From: Nitrospinota bacterium
GTDB lineage: Bacteria; Nitrospinota_A; UBA7883; JACRGQ01
DNA: 64,000 nt
Assembly: GCA_016217735.1 (NCBI GenBank)
Contig: JACRGQ010000027.1
Location: forward strand, 1 to 64,000
Reading direction: 5' to 3'
Under the pieces are notes generated by a model. The model made no database searches, was not told the DNA's origin, and worked only from the letters and a program-made list of their open reading frames with translations. A program made the translations under genes and the position numbers. Shown piece after piece: positions 4,762 to 51,083 of this stretch; positions within the stretch are counted from its first letter, which is position 1, and every line of letters begins with the position of its first letter.

Positions 4762-5660
4762 AGCGGAAAACAAAAATCGCCCTCGTGCAGATGGCGATGG
4801 GCCCCAACCCGGAAGCCAACCTCAAAAAAGCCGTTGATAAAACCGCCGAGGCCGCCGGGCGCGGCGCGGAGGTGGTCTGCCTGCCGGAACTTTTCAAATC
4901 GCTCTACTTCTGCCAGAAAGAAGACGCCTCGATCTTTGATCTGGCCGAGCCAATACCCGGACCGTCCACCGAAGCGCTCGGCGCACTGGCTAAAAAACAT
5001 GGCATCGTCATTATCGCCTCGCTCTTCGAGCGGCGCGCCCCCGGCCTCTACCACAACACCGCCGCCGTCATCGACCGCGACGGCTCGCTCGCCGGCGTTT
5101 ACCGCAAAATGCACATCCCGGACGACCCGGCATACTATGAAAAATACTACTTCGCTCCCGGCGATCTTGGCTACAAAGCGGTCGAGACATCGGCGGGAAA
5201 AATCGGCATTCTCATCTGCTGGGATCAGTGGTATCCCGAAGCGGCACGCCTCACCGCGCTGCAAGGAGCGCAGATACTTTTCTACCCCACCGCCATCGGA
5301 TGGCACCCGCATGAGAAGGCGCAATACGGCGCGGCCCAACACGATGCGTGGCGCACCATCCAACGCTCACATGCCATCGCCAACGGCGTCTATGTGGCCG
5401 CCGTTAACCGGATCGGTCACGAACGGCTGGATCCCGCCGCCCCCGGTATCGAATTTTTCGGCGGTTCGTTCATCGCCAACCCGTTTGGGGAAGTGATCGC
5501 CGAGGCTTCCACGGACAAGGAAGAAATTATCATTCAGGAGATAGACCCGGCCCGTTGCGAGGAAACCCGCCGCAACTGGCCCTTCCTGCGCGACCGCCGG
5601 ATAGACAGCTATGGCGACATAACCCGCCGCTTCCTCGACCCCGCTCCCGGCAGAAAATGA
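4758..5660 (+). CDS. aguB: N-carbamoylputrescine amidase
   Basis: This is a 300-residue carbon-nitrogen hydrolase (nitrilase superfamily). The catalytic triad is visible as Glu44 (LPELF), Lys117 (YRKMHIP) and Cys154 ([13 protein letters not shown]). Phe/Tyr-rich segments such as [14 protein letters not shown] and the C-terminal RRIDSYGDI are typical of AguB, which hydrolyses N-carbamoylputrescine to putrescine, CO2 and ammonia in the cytoplasm. GTG at 4758 overlaps the chemoreceptor stop, and the TGA overlaps the ATG of the agmatine deiminase gene. The adjacent aguA completes the two-step agmatine-to-putrescine route, which makes the assignment strong. Confidence 0.93.
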
Positions 5661-6703
5661 GCCTGCGCAAAACGCCCGCCGCGCTTGGCTTCGCCATGCC
5701 GGCCGAATGGGAACGGCATGAAGCGACATGGCTCGGCTGGCCCCACAACAAGCATGATTGGCCCGGAAAGTTTGCGCTCATCCCGTGGGTGTTTGGAGAA
5801 ATGGCGAAGGCGCTTTCGCCCGGTGAAAAGGTGCGCATCCTTGTGAACGATGCTCCGCGCGAAAAGGCGGCACGCCGCGTACTGGAAAAATGCGGCGCGG
5901 TTATGGAAAATATCGAGTTTTTCCGTTTTCCCACAAACCGGGGGTGGACGCGCGACCTCGGACCGGTCTTTGTGAAAGATGGAAAAGAAAGCGCCATCGT
6001 TAATTTCAAATTCAATGCGTGGGCGAAATATCCCGACTGGCAGAAAGATAACGGCATCGCCGGAAAAACGGCGAAGAAGCTGGACAAAAGGATATTTGAC
6101 GCACAACACTTCGTGTTGGAGGGAGGGGCCATCGACGTGAACGGGCGCGGCACCCTGCTGACAACCGAAGAGTGTTTGCTGGACACCGAAACGCAGGTGC
6201 GCAACCCCGGCATGGGACGCGCCGAAACGGAGGCGCAACTGCGCGCCCTGCTCGGCGTGAAAAATATCCTCTGGCTGGGAAAAGGGATCGCCGGAGACGA
6301 CACGCACGGTCATGTGGACGACCTCTGCCGCTTCGTGAACCCCACAACCGCCGTGCTCTGCCGGGAAAATAACAGAAACGACGCCAACTATGCGTTATTG
6401 GAGGAAAACCGCGAACGGTTGCAGGGGATGCGCCTTGAAGACGGAAGTAAAGTGCAGGTGGCCGCGCTGCCGATGCCCGCGCCGGTTATTTTTGACGGCC
6501 AGCGCCTCCCCGCTTCGTACGCCAATTTCTACATCGGCAACGCGGCGGTGATCGTTCCCACCTTCAACGACCCGAACGACCGCATTGCGCTCGGCATTCT
6601 TTCAGAATTTTTCCCCGGCCGCTCCGTCATCGGCATTCATGCCGTTGACTTGGTGTGGGGACTCGGCACGCTGCACTGCCTCACCCAACAGCAACCCGCG
6701 TAA
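5657..6703 (+). CDS. aguA: Agmatine deiminase
   Basis: The 348-residue protein belongs to the peptidylarginine-deiminase-like guanidine-modifying enzymes. The N-terminal EATWLGWPHN, the NRGWTRDLGP segment, LEGGAIDVNG, GDDTHGHVDD (catalytic His and Asp) and the C-terminal GTLHCLTQQ with the nucleophilic Cys are all present. It converts agmatine to N-carbamoylputrescine and ammonia. ATG at 5657 is picked because it makes an ATGA overlap with aguB. The TAA at 6701-6703 directly abuts the last base of the convergent copZ gene, so there is no space for a terminator between them. Confidence 0.94.
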   Translation: MSLRKTPAALGFAMPAEWERHEATWLGWPHNKHDWPGKFALIPWVFGEMAKALSPGEKVRILVNDAPREKAARRVLEKCGAVMENIEFFRFPTNRGWTRDLGPVFVKDGKESAIVNFKFNAWAKYPDWQKDNGIAGKTAKKLDKRIFDAQHFVLEGGAIDVNGRGTLLTTEECLLDTETQVRNPGMGRAETEAQLRALLGVKNILWLGKGIAGDDTHGHVDDLCRFVNPTTAVLCRENNRNDANYALLEENRERLQGMRLEDGSKVQVAALPMPAPVIFDGQRLPASYANFYIGNAAVIVPTFNDPNDRIALGILSEFFPGRSVIGIHAVDLVWGLGTLHCLTQQQPA

Positions 6704-28142: not shown

Positions 28143-28820
28143 GTGCTGCTCTGGCGGAACGCATTCGAACGGCATATGCGGGAAGCGTTGGGACGCAACC
28201 TGCGGCTCATCTGGACCGTGAACCGGCGGGTGATGATCTCGTTGCGGCGCAAGAACGGGCTGCCGGTGCTCCGTGTGCACGAAAGCTTCGCCACCGCGGG
28301 CCAGCAACTGCTCGGCGACCTCGTGACATTCCTCCTCCGCGGACATAAAGCGCCGCAAAGCATCAAAGATTTTGTGCGGACAATAGAAAGCACGCGGGAA
28401 CCGCGGGCAATCCGCATCGTCACCCGCGGCAAGCACCATGATCTGCGCGATATCTACCGCAAGCTCAACGCCGAATATTTCGGCGAAAAGCTTGCCGGCC
28501 ACATCACCTGGGGACGCAGGGCCTTCGGCGTGAAACGCTCCATCACCTTCGGCACCTATACTTTCGAGCGGAAGCTGATACGCATCCACCCGGTGCTGGA
28601 TACCGGGCTAACACCTCTCTTCTACCTGGAAAGCGTGGTGCACCACGAGATGGTTCACGAATACCTCCACACGGTGGAAGGGATCGGCCGCAAGCGCGGC
28701 AAGATGCATACACGCGGATTCCGCGAACTGGAACGGGGATTCAAGTTTTACGAAATGGCCAAGGCGTGGGAAAAACGCCACCTGAACAAACTGCTCCGCT
28801 ACCAACCAGCGGAGGAGTAA
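28143..28820 (+). CDS. SprT/YgjP-like zinc metalloprotease-domain protein
   Basis: A 225-residue protein with the zincin motif HHEMVHEYLH (about 173-182), preceded by DIYRKLNAEYFGEKL and the WGRR segment, and followed by HTRGFRELE with a third His. This is the SprT-like pattern. The N-terminal 80 residues are basic and not recognised. GTG at 28143 is taken as the start with little ribosome-site support; ATG at 28176 is an alternative. Confidence 0.75.
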   Translation: MLLWRNAFERHMREALGRNLRLIWTVNRRVMISLRRKNGLPVLRVHESFATAGQQLLGDLVTFLLRGHKAPQSIKDFVRTIESTREPRAIRIVTRGKHHDLRDIYRKLNAEYFGEKLAGHITWGRRAFGVKRSITFGTYTFERKLIRIHPVLDTGLTPLFYLESVVHHEMVHEYLHTVEGIGRKRGKMHTRGFRELERGFKFYEMAKAWEKRHLNKLLRYQPAEE

Positions 28821-28833
28821 GTTCTTTAGGTGG

Positions 28834-28872
28834 GTACATGCTCTTGGCATGTACATTGCCGCGGGGCGGCAA
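28834..28872. repeat. GTAC-hairpin repeat (family B), short copy
   Basis: GTACATGC-TCTTG-GCATGTAC (28834-28854) is followed at once by TTGCCGC-GGG-GCGGCAA (28856-28872). Both stems are perfect. Longer modular copies are at 46493 and 50602. Confidence 0.7.
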
Positions 28873-28875
28873 GAA

Positions 28876-28921
28876 AGCTTTGATACTATTTCTGGGTGCC
28901 GGATCGGTGTCCGGCATGACA
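28876..28921 (+). repeat. Family A palindromic repeat, copy 2
   Basis: AGCTTTGATACTATTTCTGG start and CATGACA end, with stem GCCGGA/TCCGGC around TCGGTG (28898-28915). The stem sequence differs from copy 1 by a compensating change. Confidence 0.7.
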
Positions 28922-28941
28922 AAAAAAGGGGCGGCGCGGCG

Positions 28942-44006: not shown

Positions 44007-44205
44007 TCATCCCCCTGAACAGTGCTTTCAGCGTTATACCCGGTTGCGTACCGGGACATCTGTTTTTCCCATTCGTAAGATACGTCCGTATTTATATCAC
44101 GCAATCAGTCAATAACGAATGGTGATGGGTGCAACGGGCTGTGCTTCCCTTAGCCGTCAAATCGAACGGCTAGAGTATTTTAACTTTTCATGGAAACGGC
44201 ATTTT

Positions 44206-44252
44206 TGTCATGCCGGACACCGATCCGGCACCCAGAAATATTATCAAAACTT
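44206..44252 (-). repeat. Family A palindromic repeat, copy 3
   Basis: Read on the minus strand it starts AAGTTTTGATAATATTTCTG and ends CATGACA, with the same stem type as copy 2 (GCCGGA/TCCGGC). It is the left half of the composite element. Confidence 0.7.
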
Positions 44253-44304
44253 CCCTCATCGGCCCAAAGGGCCGATTCTGCTTGGCGCTTCCCGGGAAAA
44301 TCAA

Positions 44305-44352
44305 GAGAGCTTGGATAATATATCTGGGTCCCGGGTCAAGCCCGGGATGACA
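44305..44352 (+). repeat. Family A palindromic repeat, copy 4
   Basis: Stem CCCGGG-TCAAG-CCCGGG (44330-44346) replaces the GCCGG type of other copies, a compensated change on both arms, within the same flanks (AGAGCTTGGATAATATATCT start, ATGACA end). Confidence 0.7.
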
Positions 44353-46466: not shown

Positions 46467-46492
46467 GTTCTTCCCCCCTTCCTCCCCGGTGG

Positions 46493-46575
46493 GTACCCAA
46501 TTTATTGGGTACATCGGCCCGAAGGGCCGACAGGGTTGGCGCTGTCGCGCCAACGTACATGCTGAGAGCATGTAC
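46493..46575. repeat. GTAC-hairpin repeat (family B), four consecutive stems
   Basis: Four perfect hairpins in 83 bp: GTACCCAAT-TT-ATTGGGTAC (46493-46512), TCGGCCC-GAA-GGGCCGA (46514-46530), GTTGGCGC-TGTC-GCGCCAAC (46535-46554) and GTACATGCT-GAG-AGCATGTAC (46555-46575). The outer two share only GTAC ends. The block sits between the TPMT-like gene and the end of the large kinase gene. Confidence 0.85.
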
Positions 46576-46609
46576 CCGCCAGGGAAAATCAGGAAGGGTT
46601 CGGATAAAT

Positions 46610-49600
46610 TTATCCGATGAATCTTCTCACGCGCGGCAAAAATTCGGCTTTGTCGATTTTCTTGGTTACGAAATCATCGCCGCCGAATTTGAAAATGGAA
46701 TCCCGTATTTCCATGCCGTATTCGCCGATCATCACGATGACCGGTATATCCTTGGTCTCGGGCGCGCCTTTGATCCGTTTCAGCAGTTCAAGGCCGTCCA
46801 TAACCGGCATCTGGATATCGGTGATAACCAAATCGGGCCGGACGCCGGCCATCTTATTCAGCGCATCCTCGCCATTTTCCGCCTCGATGATATCGGCCTT
46901 CATCTCCCGCAGTTGCAGCGTTTGGAGGAGACGCGCATGCCCGTCGTCATCCACCAGAAGAATCTTGGGGCGGACGTACGGCAGTGTAAGGCAGAACAGG
47001 CACCCCTTGCCGGGTTCGCTTATCACCCCCACCCCCCCTCCGTGAAGTTCCATGATGTTTTTAACAAGCGGAAGCCCAAAGCCGGTGCCGGTTTCACCGG
47101 CGGTTCCCGGTGTGGAGGTCTTTTTCTCGAACTTGAAAAGATCGGCCAGCAGATTGGGCGGGATGCCCGGCCCGGTATCCCGGACACAAATGGTTGATGC
47201 GTTTTCTTCCGCGAGGGATATGGAAATGCGGTCGCCGTTTTTGCAGAACTTTATGGCGTTGGTGACGAGATTCTGGACCGCCTCGGCCAGCAGGGTCTTG
47301 TCGCCGTAAACGCGGCTGTTTGCCGGTATCGTGCTCTCAATTTCAATCCCCTTTTGCCGCGCAAGATGGGCATAATTGCCGGCCATTATCACACCCAAAT
47401 ATTGCGCATCGAAGAATTGCCTGTTCAGTTTCAGTTGGCCGGTTTTAAACCTGCTTATCGTCAGCAGATCGTCGATGAGGCGGACCATCGCTTCGCCGGA
47501 TTCCGCCGCCCTGTCCAATATCAGTTTTGCGCCTTCGTTCAGCGGTTCGGCGTAATCATCGCGCACCAAATGTAAAAACCCGATCATCGACGCCAGCGGC
47601 GTTTTAAGGTCGTGGGACACCAGCGACACGAACTTGTCCTTCAGCTTGGTCGCCTCTTCCGCCGCCTCTTTGGCCGCTTTCAACTTCTCCTCCGCCGCTT
47701 TCCGTTCGGTGATGTCGCGGATGATGCCGGTAAAGTATGTTTTTCCTCCCTCTTCCCAAGCGGCGAGTGAGAGTTCCAGCGGAAATTCGGCGCCGTCTTT
47801 CCGCAGCCCTTCCAAAGTGGCGGTTTTCCCGATTAACCGGTAGGGCCCGCCGGCCGTCGCCCGCGCCAAGCCCCGCCGGTGCGCCTCATCGTAGCGCTTC
47901 GGTATCAGCAATCCCACCGGCTTGCCCAGCGCCTCGCTTTCGGCGTGGCCGAACATCTTTTCGGCTCCCTTGTTCCAGTGGATGATCTCGCCCGCGCCGT
48001 TGATGGATATGATGGCATCGGCGGCCGATTGGGCCACGGCACGGAACTTTCGTTCGCTGGCACGCAGGTTATCTTCGGCCCGTTTGCGTTCGGTGATGTC
48101 GCGGACGACGGAAAGCGCCATCGTCTTTTCGCCGAGCGGAAACTGGCGTGAAATGATCTCAACGGGTATCAGCCGCCCGTCCTTGGCGCGATGCACCCGC
48201 TCAAACCGCACGCTTCCATGCTCAAGATTTTCCCGTTCCAGCCACCCGTACTCTTCCGGCTTGGTGACGGTCTCCCCGGTGTCGATGTCATCCGGCCCAA
48301 TCGTCAGCATCTCCGCGCGGAAATAGCCGAGCCTTTTGCACATCGCGTCGTTGACATCGACGAAGGTTCCCATCTTTTTTGTGACGGGATCGAACTCGTG
48401 CAACACCAGTCCGTCGCTGATGACGTTAAACAGCTCGGCGTAGGTTTTCTCGGCCTCTTTCCGCGCGGTGATGTCGATAACCTGTACGTACAGATGCATC
48501 GGCCTGCCATTTGCGTCTTTTATAAGGGCAACCGCCACCGAACACCAAATGACATGGCCGTCCCTGTGCATAAACCGTTTTTCGACTTCCCGCTTTACCG
48601 CCTCGCCCCGCGCCACTTTCCGCAGGAACTTTTCCCCCATTTCCATATCAAGGGTGTGGGTGAAGTCCTGGAACGATTTCCCGATAACTTCCTTTTCGGC
48701 ATAGCCGAACATCAGGCATAAGGCGTCATTTACCCGCGTAAACTTGCCGTCAAGGTTGAGAAACGCCAAGCCGAATGCGGCATTATCAAACGTTACCCGC
48801 AGCCGCTCTTCGGATTCCCGTATGGCCTGTTCCGCCTTTATCCGTTCGGTGATGTCGCGGATGGAGGTCACCCGCGCTTTTTGGCCGTGATAAACGGCGC
48901 CCCGCCCCTGTATCTCTATGGGGAACAGCGTGCCGTCCTTTTTGAGTCCCACCGCCTCGTAACACTCTTCGCTCCCCCGCCCGATATGATCCGCCACGAT
49001 GGCGTACGACTCCGGCGGAACCAGATCGAGGGGAGTCTTGCCGATGATCTCATCCCGCGCGTAACCGAACTTCCGGGCGAAAGAGGTGTTGCAATCCACT
49101 ATCTTTCCACCAACCGTTATCGTGACTCCTTCAAAGCTCGCCTCGGAAAGCTGGCGAAAGCGTTCTTCGGATTCCCGTATGGCCTGTTCCGACTTCACCC
49201 GCTCGCTAATGTCGCGCACCGCGGTAATACGGGCTTTTTGGCCGCGGTAGAGGATGACGCGGCCCTGCATCTCTATGGGGAACAGCGTGCCGTCCTTTTT
49301 GCGCCCCATCACGTCGTAAACTTCTTCGCTCCCCCGCCTGATATGATCCATGATGACGGCTTGCGATTCCGGCGGGGAGAGATCGACTGGAATTGTGCCG
49401 ATGATTTCCTCCGGCGCGTAGCCGAACATCCGGGCAAAGGCGCTGTTGCAGTCCACCACCTTCCCTTCGACGTTGATGACGATCCCTTCAAAACCCGCCT
49501 CAGAAAGCTGGCGGAAGCGTTCTTCGCCCTCGCGCAGGGTTTCTTCCGCTTTTTTACGTTCCGTAATGTCCTTGCCCACCCCTATGAAGCCGAGCAACTC

Positions 49601-50566
49601 GCCGTCCGGACTTTTCCACGCCGCGCCGTTGCACAGGTGCGGAACCAGCGCGCCGTCATGCCGTATGAAACGCACCTCGATGGAGGCCAACCCTTTTTCG
49701 AGCACCTCTTTGATGCCGTCAAACACCACCTGCCTGTCCTCTTCGCAAACGAAATCGGCGGCCGGACGTTCCATCATCTGTTCGCGGGTGAGGCCGCATA
49801 ACTCCTGAAGGGCCGAGTTCCATTTGATGAGCGCGCCTTTCGTGTTGATGACATACAGTATGTCCGGCTGCGCTTCCATGATGGAGATCAGCTCCTTTTC
49901 CGCCTTTCTGCGCTCCGACACGTCGCGCATGTCGATGACGAACGATATTTCGGAATTCACCAAGCACTCGGAAGAGGCGCATTCAACCATCAGCTTTTTG
50001 CCGGATTTCGTGACCGCCACCGCTTCGGCCACCGGCGCGGCGCTGTGGCCGTCCCACCCGTCCAGCGACGCCGCAAAGCCATCCACCAACACCCTTTCAT
50101 ATCCGTCCGGCAGCAGGAGGGAGATATGTTTATTCTCAAGCTCGGTTTTGCCGTAGCCGAACATATAGTGCGCGGCGGGATTGGCGGAGAGGATGGCGCC
50201 GTCACTGTTTATCCGGATGATGGCATCCGCCGACGAAGCTATGACCGCGCGGTGCAACGCTTCCGAAAATTCCAGTTGGACGGTTCTTTCCCGCACCCGC
50301 CGTTCAAGGGCGCCGGAGAGCGCTTTGAGGTCTGTTACGCTCCGTGAAAAAGGGCGGTAAATAAAAAAGTAGAGCAACGGCAGGAGAACGGTGGTGAGGA
50401 TCAAGGCATCCATCGTGTAGTATGCGGTTTCGGCGAACTCGTGGAAGAAACTCATGATGATCACTTCCGTCAGGTACAGGGCGCCGACAACAGTCGCCAC
50501 CAATATCAGCGGGCGTGGAAGGGCGTTTACGGCCCCGTCCTCTTTTTTCAGGCTCTCGTTATCCAT
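46610..50566 (-). CDS. Seven-PAS hybrid sensor histidine kinase
   Basis: A 1318-residue hybrid kinase. Two N-terminal membrane helices precede seven PAS/PAC units (the repeated endings are DITERKKAEE-like). PAS 3 and 4 are near-duplicates (EERFRQLSEAGFEG and EERFRQLSEASFEG). The kinase core follows with SHDLKTPLASM (phospho-His), NLVTNAIKF, RDTGPGIPPNLL and TGFGLPLVKNIM. The C-terminal receiver has DDDG, Asp in ITDIQMPVMDG and Lys in VTKKID, but Ile replaces the switch Thr (VIVMIGE). ATG 50566 is preferred over a start inside the upstream repeat. Confidence 0.92.
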   Translation of the reverse strand: MDNESLKKEDGAVNALPRPLILVATVVGALYLTEVIIMSFFHEFAETAYYTMDALILTTVLLPLLYFFIYRPFSRSVTDLKALSGALERRVRERTVQLEFSEALHRAVIASSADAIIRINSDGAILSANPAAHYMFGYGKTELENKHISLLLPDGYERVLVDGFAASLDGWDGHSAAPVAEAVAVTKSGKKLMVECASSECLVNSEISFVIDMRDVSERRKAEKELISIMEAQPDILYVINTKGALIKWNSALQELCGLTREQMMERPAADFVCEEDRQVVFDGIKEVLEKGLASIEVRFIRHDGALVPHLCNGAAWKSPDGELLGFIGVGKDITERKKAEETLREGEERFRQLSEAGFEGIVINVEGKVVDCNSAFARMFGYAPEEIIGTIPVDLSPPESQAVIMDHIRRGSEEVYDVMGRKKDGTLFPIEMQGRVILYRGQKARITAVRDISERVKSEQAIRESEERFRQLSEASFEGVTITVGGKIVDCNTSFARKFGYARDEIIGKTPLDLVPPESYAIVADHIGRGSEECYEAVGLKKDGTLFPIEIQGRGAVYHGQKARVTSIRDITERIKAEQAIRESEERLRVTFDNAAFGLAFLNLDGKFTRVNDALCLMFGYAEKEVIGKSFQDFTHTLDMEMGEKFLRKVARGEAVKREVEKRFMHRDGHVIWCSVAVALIKDANGRPMHLYVQVIDITARKEAEKTYAELFNVISDGLVLHEFDPVTKKMGTFVDVNDAMCKRLGYFRAEMLTIGPDDIDTGETVTKPEEYGWLERENLEHGSVRFERVHRAKDGRLIPVEIISRQFPLGEKTMALSVVRDITERKRAEDNLRASERKFRAVAQSAADAIISINGAGEIIHWNKGAEKMFGHAESEALGKPVGLLIPKRYDEAHRRGLARATAGGPYRLIGKTATLEGLRKDGAEFPLELSLAAWEEGGKTYFTGIIRDITERKAAEEKLKAAKEAAEEATKLKDKFVSLVSHDLKTPLASMIGFLHLVRDDYAEPLNEGAKLILDRAAESGEAMVRLIDDLLTISRFKTGQLKLNRQFFDAQYLGVIMAGNYAHLARQKGIEIESTIPANSRVYGDKTLLAEAVQNLVTNAIKFCKNGDRISISLAEENASTICVRDTGPGIPPNLLADLFKFEKKTSTPGTAGETGTGFGLPLVKNIMELHGGGVGVISEPGKGCLFCLTLPYVRPKILLVDDDGHARLLQTLQLREMKADIIEAENGEDALNKMAGVRPDLVITDIQMPVMDGLELLKRIKGAPETKDIPVIVMIGEYGMEIRDSIFKFGGDDFVTKKIDKAEFLPRVRRFIG

Positions 50567-50601
50567 GCTGCCCCCAGCGTAGTGGCGGCATTTCCTGGTG
50601 G

Positions 50602-50737
50602 GTACGGACTTTAGTCTGTACATCGGCCCGAAGGGCCGACCCTTTCTTGGTGGGTACGGACTTTAGTCTGTACATCGGCCCGAAGGGCCGACCTCTCTCT
50701 TGGCGCTCCGCGCCAATGTACACAATAAATTGTGTAC
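50602..50737. repeat. GTAC-hairpin repeat (family B), tandem copy
   Basis: A 52-bp unit occurs twice: GTACGGACT-TT-AGTCTGTAC (50602-50621; 50654-50673), each followed by TCGGCCC-GAA-GGGCCGA (50623-50639; 50675-50691). Then come TTGGCGC-TCC-GCGCCAA (50700-50716) and GTACACAAT-AA-ATTGTGTAC (50718-50737). The first stem contains a G-T pair, so it fits RNA pairing. Confidence 0.85.
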
Positions 50738-50800
50738 CTACCGGCGCCGCCGCGCCAACGTCACACAAGAATGTGCGGCCTGCCGGCGCCGCCGGCTGCG

Positions 50801-50868
50801 TGTCATCCTGAGCCGCAGGCGAAGGATCTCTTTCCGGAAAGGGATTCTTCGCTGCGCTCAGAATGACA
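50801..50868. repeat. TGTCATCCTGAGC palindrome (family C)
   Basis: TGTCATCCTGAGC at the left and GCTCAGAATGACA at the right end a 68-bp imperfect palindrome whose centre is GGATCTCTTTCC-GGAAAGGGATTC. The centre recurs at 55247-55278. A related decayed unit follows at 50876-50925. Similar TCATTCTGAGC repeats are common in bacterial genomes. Confidence 0.65.
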
Positions 50869-50951
50869 ACCAAGGGATTCTTCGCGGAGTTTACACTGAG
50901 CGGAGCGAACGTGCTTAGAATGACATGCTTGCGGCTTCGGGATGAAAATTT

Positions 50952-51026
50952 CCTCCCCTTTGCAAGGGGAGGTGCGGGAGGGGTAAAAAAAACCTCCCCT
51001 GTATCCCCTCCTTGCAAAGGAGGGGA
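50952..51026. repeat. CCTCCCC palindromes (family D)
   Basis: CCTCCCCTT-TGC-AAGGGGAGG (50952-50972) and TCCCCTCCTT-GCA-AAGGAGGGGA (51004-51026) are two perfect hairpins 31 bp apart. They complete a gene-free 500-bp stretch (50567-51083) that consists almost only of palindromic repeats. Confidence 0.65.
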
Positions 51027-51083
51027 TGACTCTATATTCGATGCCCGATTGGTATTAATCGTCTTTTCCAAACTAATGCCCCC

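Follow-up and report, generated by a model that had tools for sequence, protein, structure and literature searches.

Hairpin Units in the Window

The 64,000-nucleotide window, which comes from contig 27 of a draft Nitrospinota assembly, contains six GTAC-bounded hairpins at three sites (28834, 46493, and 50602). All six hairpins listed in the earlier note exist, but their pairing is not uniformly perfect, as three of them carry a G·T pair. Each is part of a longer unit, present on either strand, that consists of a GG(T/C)(G/A)G head, an outer hairpin (hp1), usually one base, and an inner hairpin (hp2). The hp1 stem is 9 bp, with a loop of 2–3 nt in the GTAC classes, and the hp2 stem is about 7 bp. 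Two outward-headed units make a dimer (BIME) of about 92 bp.

At the first site, in the gap after a predicted gene (28143–28820), lies a single REP unit (28829–28872, + strand) with head GGTGG and hp1 GTACATGC-TCTTG-GCATGTAC (28834–28854, RAYT-A class), whose top pair is T·G. Its second hairpin, TTGCCGC-GGG-GCGGCAA (28856–28872), is complementary but different in sequence; it replaces the TCGGCCC and TTGGCGC modules, which the earlier note placed at all three sites and which are present at 46.5 and 50.6 kb. The second site is a dimer (46488–46580). The left half (46488–46530, + strand) has head GGTGG, hp1 GTACCCAAT-TT-ATTGGGTAC (46493–46512, RAYT-F class), and hp2 TCGGCCC-GAA-GGGCCGA (46514–46530, TC type). 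The right half (46535–46580, − strand) has head GGCGG, hp1 GTACATGCT-CTC-AGCATGTAC (46555–46575, RAYT-A class), and hp2 GTTGGCGC-GACA-GCGCCAAC (46535–46554, TT type). This hybrid F/A dimer folds into four adjacent hairpins (−33.6 kcal/mol, z −7.9), and the DNA-fold z-scores of the window units range from −6.5 to −8.4. Beyond it, on the − strand, lies a very long predicted gene of about 1,300 aa (46610–50566) that by eye resembles a hybrid histidine kinase with multiple PAS segments, which nearly repeat one another.

The third site begins with a REP unit (50597–50639, + strand; head GGTGG, hp1 GTACGGACT-TT-AGTCTGTAC at 50602–50621 with one G·T pair, hp2 TCGGCCC-GAA-GGGCCGA). A tandem copy with a 52-bp period (50649–50691, + strand; hp1 at 50654–50673) forms the left half of a dimer whose right half (50700–50742, − strand) has head GGTAG, hp1 GTACACAAT-TT-ATTGTGTAC (50718–50737, RAYT-F class), and hp2 TTGGCGC-GGA-GCGCCAA (TT type). 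Next to it, a degenerate further unit can be read from the sequence (50743–50785, − strand): head GGCAG, GCCGCACATTCTTGTGTGAC in which two pairs are mismatched, and an inner hairpin rich in GGCGC. It resembles the GTCACACA units that adjoin RAYT-E genes. After this cluster, at 50800–51030, there are two further repeat types, TGTCATCCTGAGCCGCAGGCGAAGGATCT and a CCTCCCCTTTGCAAGGGGAGG hairpin pair. Where five different self-complementary stems had been counted, we distinguish four classes (ATGC/ATGCT, CCAAT, GGACT, and ACAAT), with ATGC at 28834 and ATGCT at 46555 forming a single class. The GGACT stem is present twice, as the tandem copy, and GGACT/AGTCT is imperfectly complementary because of its G·T pair.

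A dimer core with no recognizable outer hairpins lies at 44259–44300 (no strand assigned) and consists of TCGGCCC-AAA-GGGCCGA (44259–44275) followed by TTGGCGC. Palindromes of the form TGTCATGCCGGA...TCCGGCACCCAGAAATATTATCAAA occur beside or around REP cores at 44195–44350 and 28875–28925 and resemble CGTC/TGTC-type REPs. A CGTC/TGTC-like palindrome in matching orientation was found within 200 bp of 6 of 53 GTAG clusters (about 0.2 expected); nesting within such palindromes was rejected as a general explanation of the dimers, as it applies to this minority only.

Copy Number and Genomic Placement

Copies are not confined to the three sites: the 2.11 of 2.53 Mb of draft assembly that were covered contain about 70 units with both hairpins, and in 37 of these hp1 is of the GTAC type. 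Further copies are present in relatives belonging to the same Nitrospinota family, the named carriers being Nitrospinota MAGs. Outer stems outside the GTAC type include CGCGGACA, GTGCGACA, and GTCACACA. Exact GGTGGGTAC-N9-14-GTAC sites number 37 genome-wide, against 1 for the reversed pattern, which is clearly more than chance would give; one sister species (G003) has 94 exact GTAC-class sites. The reported constancy of the TCGGCCC module is true of the window only, since genome-wide the stem is conserved but the loop differs greatly among copies, and other types of inner stem are also present. Five scattered matches to the pattern were seen in viral contigs.

Among 4-mers preceding perfect hairpins in the 2.11 Mb, GTAG is the most enriched (43 sites, 12.8-fold), and GTGG precedes 47 (3.8-fold). 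The GT(A/G)G tetranucleotide immediately 5′ of a palindrome is the hallmark of GTAG-superfamily REPs, and the high copy number, extragenic location, and regularly spaced inverted dimers also agree with this superfamily. Outward-headed dimers with regular spacing (n = 52) span 87–113 bp, with a mode of 92. By our own simple gene predictor, 65 of 70 units lie outside predicted genes at a coding density of 86%, where about 14% would be expected. Two of the five units scored as genic look like chance hairpins, and the 46488 unit was apparently placed in a gene by a predicted start too far upstream of an ATG at about 46430. Convergent gene pairs are over-represented around the units (15/40, against a background of 16%).

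RAYT Transposases

RAYTs are tyrosine transposases of the HUH type whose substrate is folded single-stranded DNA. The search for a partner transposase, as the earlier note had suggested, was productive. A profile built from repeat-flanked Y1 proteins retrieved about 17 RAYT-like ORFs in the sequence examined, nearly all with units within 500 bp, mostly on both sides. Three of five RAYTs score above the cutoff of 80 for NF047646 (REP_Tyr_transpos, NCBIfam) and the other two reach 79.3–79.4. They also match PF01797, their best PDB match is 4er8 (TnpA_REP), and the HxH and conserved C-terminal Tyr motifs align. The IS200/IS605 elements (IS608, ISDra2) share the HUH-Y1 transposase family and single-stranded DNA hairpin ends, but the RAYT model and the TnpA_REP structure match better here (NF033573, transpos_IS200, gives 29 bits, far below its cutoff of 55), and we find many dispersed short elements rather than a few IS copies. 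A second PF01797 match in the genome under study (G000; C53, L005) was rejected as a RAYT, being a conserved gene without REPs. A short conserved protein (MIISDIDYHFVLP...; L005 1489–1860, also L129, L132, L133, and L138) matches Y1_Tnp weakly in several relatives and has no adjoining REPs.

The stem class of the flanking units varies with the RAYT. ATGCT/AGGCT units adjoin RAYT-A, which is syntenic in the sister species G001, G002, and G003 and is interrupted by a stop in G001. RAYT-F (G003 C125) sits among CCAAT, ACATT, ACAAT, and CCATT units. CACGGACA units adjoin the RAYTs of G000 C23 and G003 C91, and GTACACACA/GTACACGCA units adjoin that of G005 C31. The G000 C23 RAYT (L015) is flanked not by single inverted REPs but by two whole dimers of about 120 bp (5230–5350 and 5930–6050), nearly identical and in direct repeat. 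Beside the G003 C125 RAYT (L053 4908–5950), tandem copies of the dimer recur every 102 bp. The RAYT tree is poorly supported (3 of 14 branches).

The window's four stem classes may represent at least two RAYT families together with compensated variants. Units of the RAYT-A and RAYT-F classes are the commonest GTAC classes of G000, which retains two other RAYTs (C23 and C57). We found no close orthologue of RAYT-A or RAYT-F in its draft assembly (best matches 48–52% identical), and the window units thus look like relics or elements served by other RAYTs. No cognate RAYT for the GGACT units was found among the RAYT-like ORFs examined.

Mobility and Stem Complementarity

Among the four sister species (G000–G003), many sites with flanks about 80–93% identical hold a unit in one species while a second species has no unit there or a different one, indicating that the units have moved. 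For example, a G000 C57 site is empty (a 34–39 bp gap) where an ACAAT/CCATT dimer is present in G003 and a CCATT unit in G001, with flanks 88–91% identical. The case for mobility is built on such site differences between species about 85% identical.

Given the GT(A/G)G head, the TY loop of the commonest class, the outward dimers, the intergenic placement, the RAYT-specific flanking stems, and the site polymorphism, the hairpins are very probably REP elements of the GTAG superfamily in a BIME/REPIN arrangement, which are short, non-autonomous mobile sequences that RAYTs disperse.

Covariation was examined across the four sister species in 162 copies, which were chosen by the head and two GTACs without requiring pairing. 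Rather than the non-complementary stems that had been considered for related genomes, all five inner positions pair in 151 copies, 135 of them without G·T; when the 3′ arms were dealt out anew, 17% paired fully. Because the copies share descent, the counts should not be read as independent events. Two independent base pairs distinguish the stems ACAAT, CCAAT, ACATT, and CCATT; every one of the four combinations is found, each complementary, around one RAYT. Loops of hp1 are few (TT, TC, and CTC), and hp2 combines few stems with many loops. The frequency of full pairing and the four complementary stems around one RAYT support the selection on structure that the earlier note had proposed.

Structured RNA elements (terminators, mRNA stabilizers, or riboregulators) with stems kept co-varying by selection acting on the transcript would also be intergenic, enriched between convergent genes, and tolerant of G·T pairs, and secondary RNA roles have been proposed for REPs (PMC3733652). 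We consider this origin unlikely. Curated Rfam covariance models match one tRNA and nothing else in the window, and the T-run that marks a Rho-independent terminator follows none of the window hairpins as read from the sequence. Moreover, copy presence differs between relatives, the units flank transposase genes, and the head is conserved although it is unpaired.

The earlier note had also raised a copying mechanism that rewrites both arms. Acting on a resident hairpin, for instance by template switching or hairpin-templated repair, it would create new perfect stems in place. Many perfect stems of differing sequence would fit such a process, as would one orthologous RAYT-flanking inner hairpin with a compensated pair, TTTCCCC/GGGGAAA in G002 and TTTCTCC/GGGAGAAA in G001. 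However, most of the orthologous loci that we checked differ in presence or whole-unit identity, not by rewritten stems. Stem classes track RAYT genes, and a vertically inherited copy carries single-armed damage (GGACT/CGTTT at G002 C197 against GGACT/AGTCT at G000 C20, orthology being judged from the matching unit pair and spacing). Rewriting in place is therefore quite improbable, and it is unneeded because several co-existing REP families, each paired with a RAYT of its own, account for the different stems, along with compensated variants within families. MITEs of the ordinary kind, tied to a DDE transposase and not to RAYTs, share the short inverted structure with outward ends, but with no evident target duplication in the occupied/empty alignments inspected, and with REP head, hairpin anatomy, and RAYT adjacency all consistent with an HUH system, this origin is extremely improbable.

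Under the REP/RAYT interpretation, a RAYT would bind the head and hp1 folded in single-stranded DNA and copy or move the unit or dimer. Copies with mismatched stems would be poor substrates and leave no progeny, such that a one-arm change would persist among mobile copies only with a matching change in the other arm; this could explain why the stems stay complementary. Cleavage of a perfect-palindrome REP by TnpA_REP is reduced or almost abolished by mid-stem mismatches, and a loop base is critical (PMC8266576).

Asymmetric Inner Hairpins of the Dimers

The two inner hairpins of a dimer are almost always unlike. We classified hp2 as TC type (TCGGCCC, TCATGCC) or TT type (TTGGCGC, TTGCCGC), assigning a few variants by eye. 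Of the 42 dimers from the four sister species that could be classified, 40 join opposite types; random pairing gives a mean of 21 and never more than 34 in 100,000 shuffles. In this genome alone, the ratio is 11/11 (p ∼ 0.003). The pattern is seen in dimers with caps from different hp1 families, and in 17 of 46 dimers, grouped by stem, the hp1 hairpins of two families are joined. A single RAYT–REP pair cannot explain every dimer, as some carry outer hairpins of two RAYT families. Shared ancestry of the dimer core could explain part of the asymmetry; all 46 dimers are distinct, as are nearly all inner spacers.

The hp2 hairpins may belong to the dimer spacer, where their near-obligate unlikeness would prevent one long inverted repeat between the halves. 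In 41 of 46 dimers, less than 16 bp is common to both halves; the excess of unlikeness that we tested concerns the inner hairpins only. Spacers with stem-loops, together with an argument involving SbcCD, have been described (PMC3733652). We tentatively suggest that a common asymmetric core, with one TC and one TT inner hairpin and variable loops, is used by several RAYT families, whose specific outer hairpins are swapped like exchangeable caps.

Relation to Known REP Systems

The closest likeness is to the GTAG REPs of the Stenotrophomonas type (e.g., GGTGGGTGCCGACCGTTGGTCGGCAC), in which a GT(A/G)G head directly precedes an 8–9 bp perfect palindrome with a 2–4 nt loop, RAYTs are flanked by cognate units, several RAYT/REP families share a genome, and hybrid BIMEs and complementary stem changes occur (PMC2817692, PMC3686654). 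Inverted REPs flanking RAYTs and "selection for complementary mutations" were described there (PMC2817692), and GTAG subfamilies with alternative complementary stem residues, TY loops, and heterodimers are also on record (PMC3733652). In contrast to the Stenotrophomonas type, most units here have a second hairpin that starts a single base past the REP, and they occur in a Nitrospinota host. Dimers of unlike REPs with structured spacers and mosaic composition are known from A. tumefaciens (CGTC-3), Enterobacteriaceae (GTAG-3), and E. coli BIMEs (PMC3733652); here, however, the spacer hairpins are opposite in 40/42 dimers and common to dimers capped with hp1 of different RAYT families. Complementary REP stem changes, hybrid dimers, and structured spacers are thus already published, and we have seen no earlier description of opposite-type inner hairpins common to several RAYT families. 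Our search of the open-access literature turned up no paper on Nitrospinota RAYTs or REPINs.

The element is of a known kind; what is new is the host phylum and the asymmetric four-hairpin dimer. These results add Nitrospinota to the hosts of RAYT/REP systems and provide, across four sister species, a set of RAYT families together with the stem classes paired to them. If the outer hairpins are indeed exchangeable caps, the specificity of mobilization would be modular, and the unlike inner pair would itself be selected or required in a transposition intermediate. Nearly obligate unlike hairpins, together with caps common to RAYT families, suggest a testable rule on which dimers move or survive.
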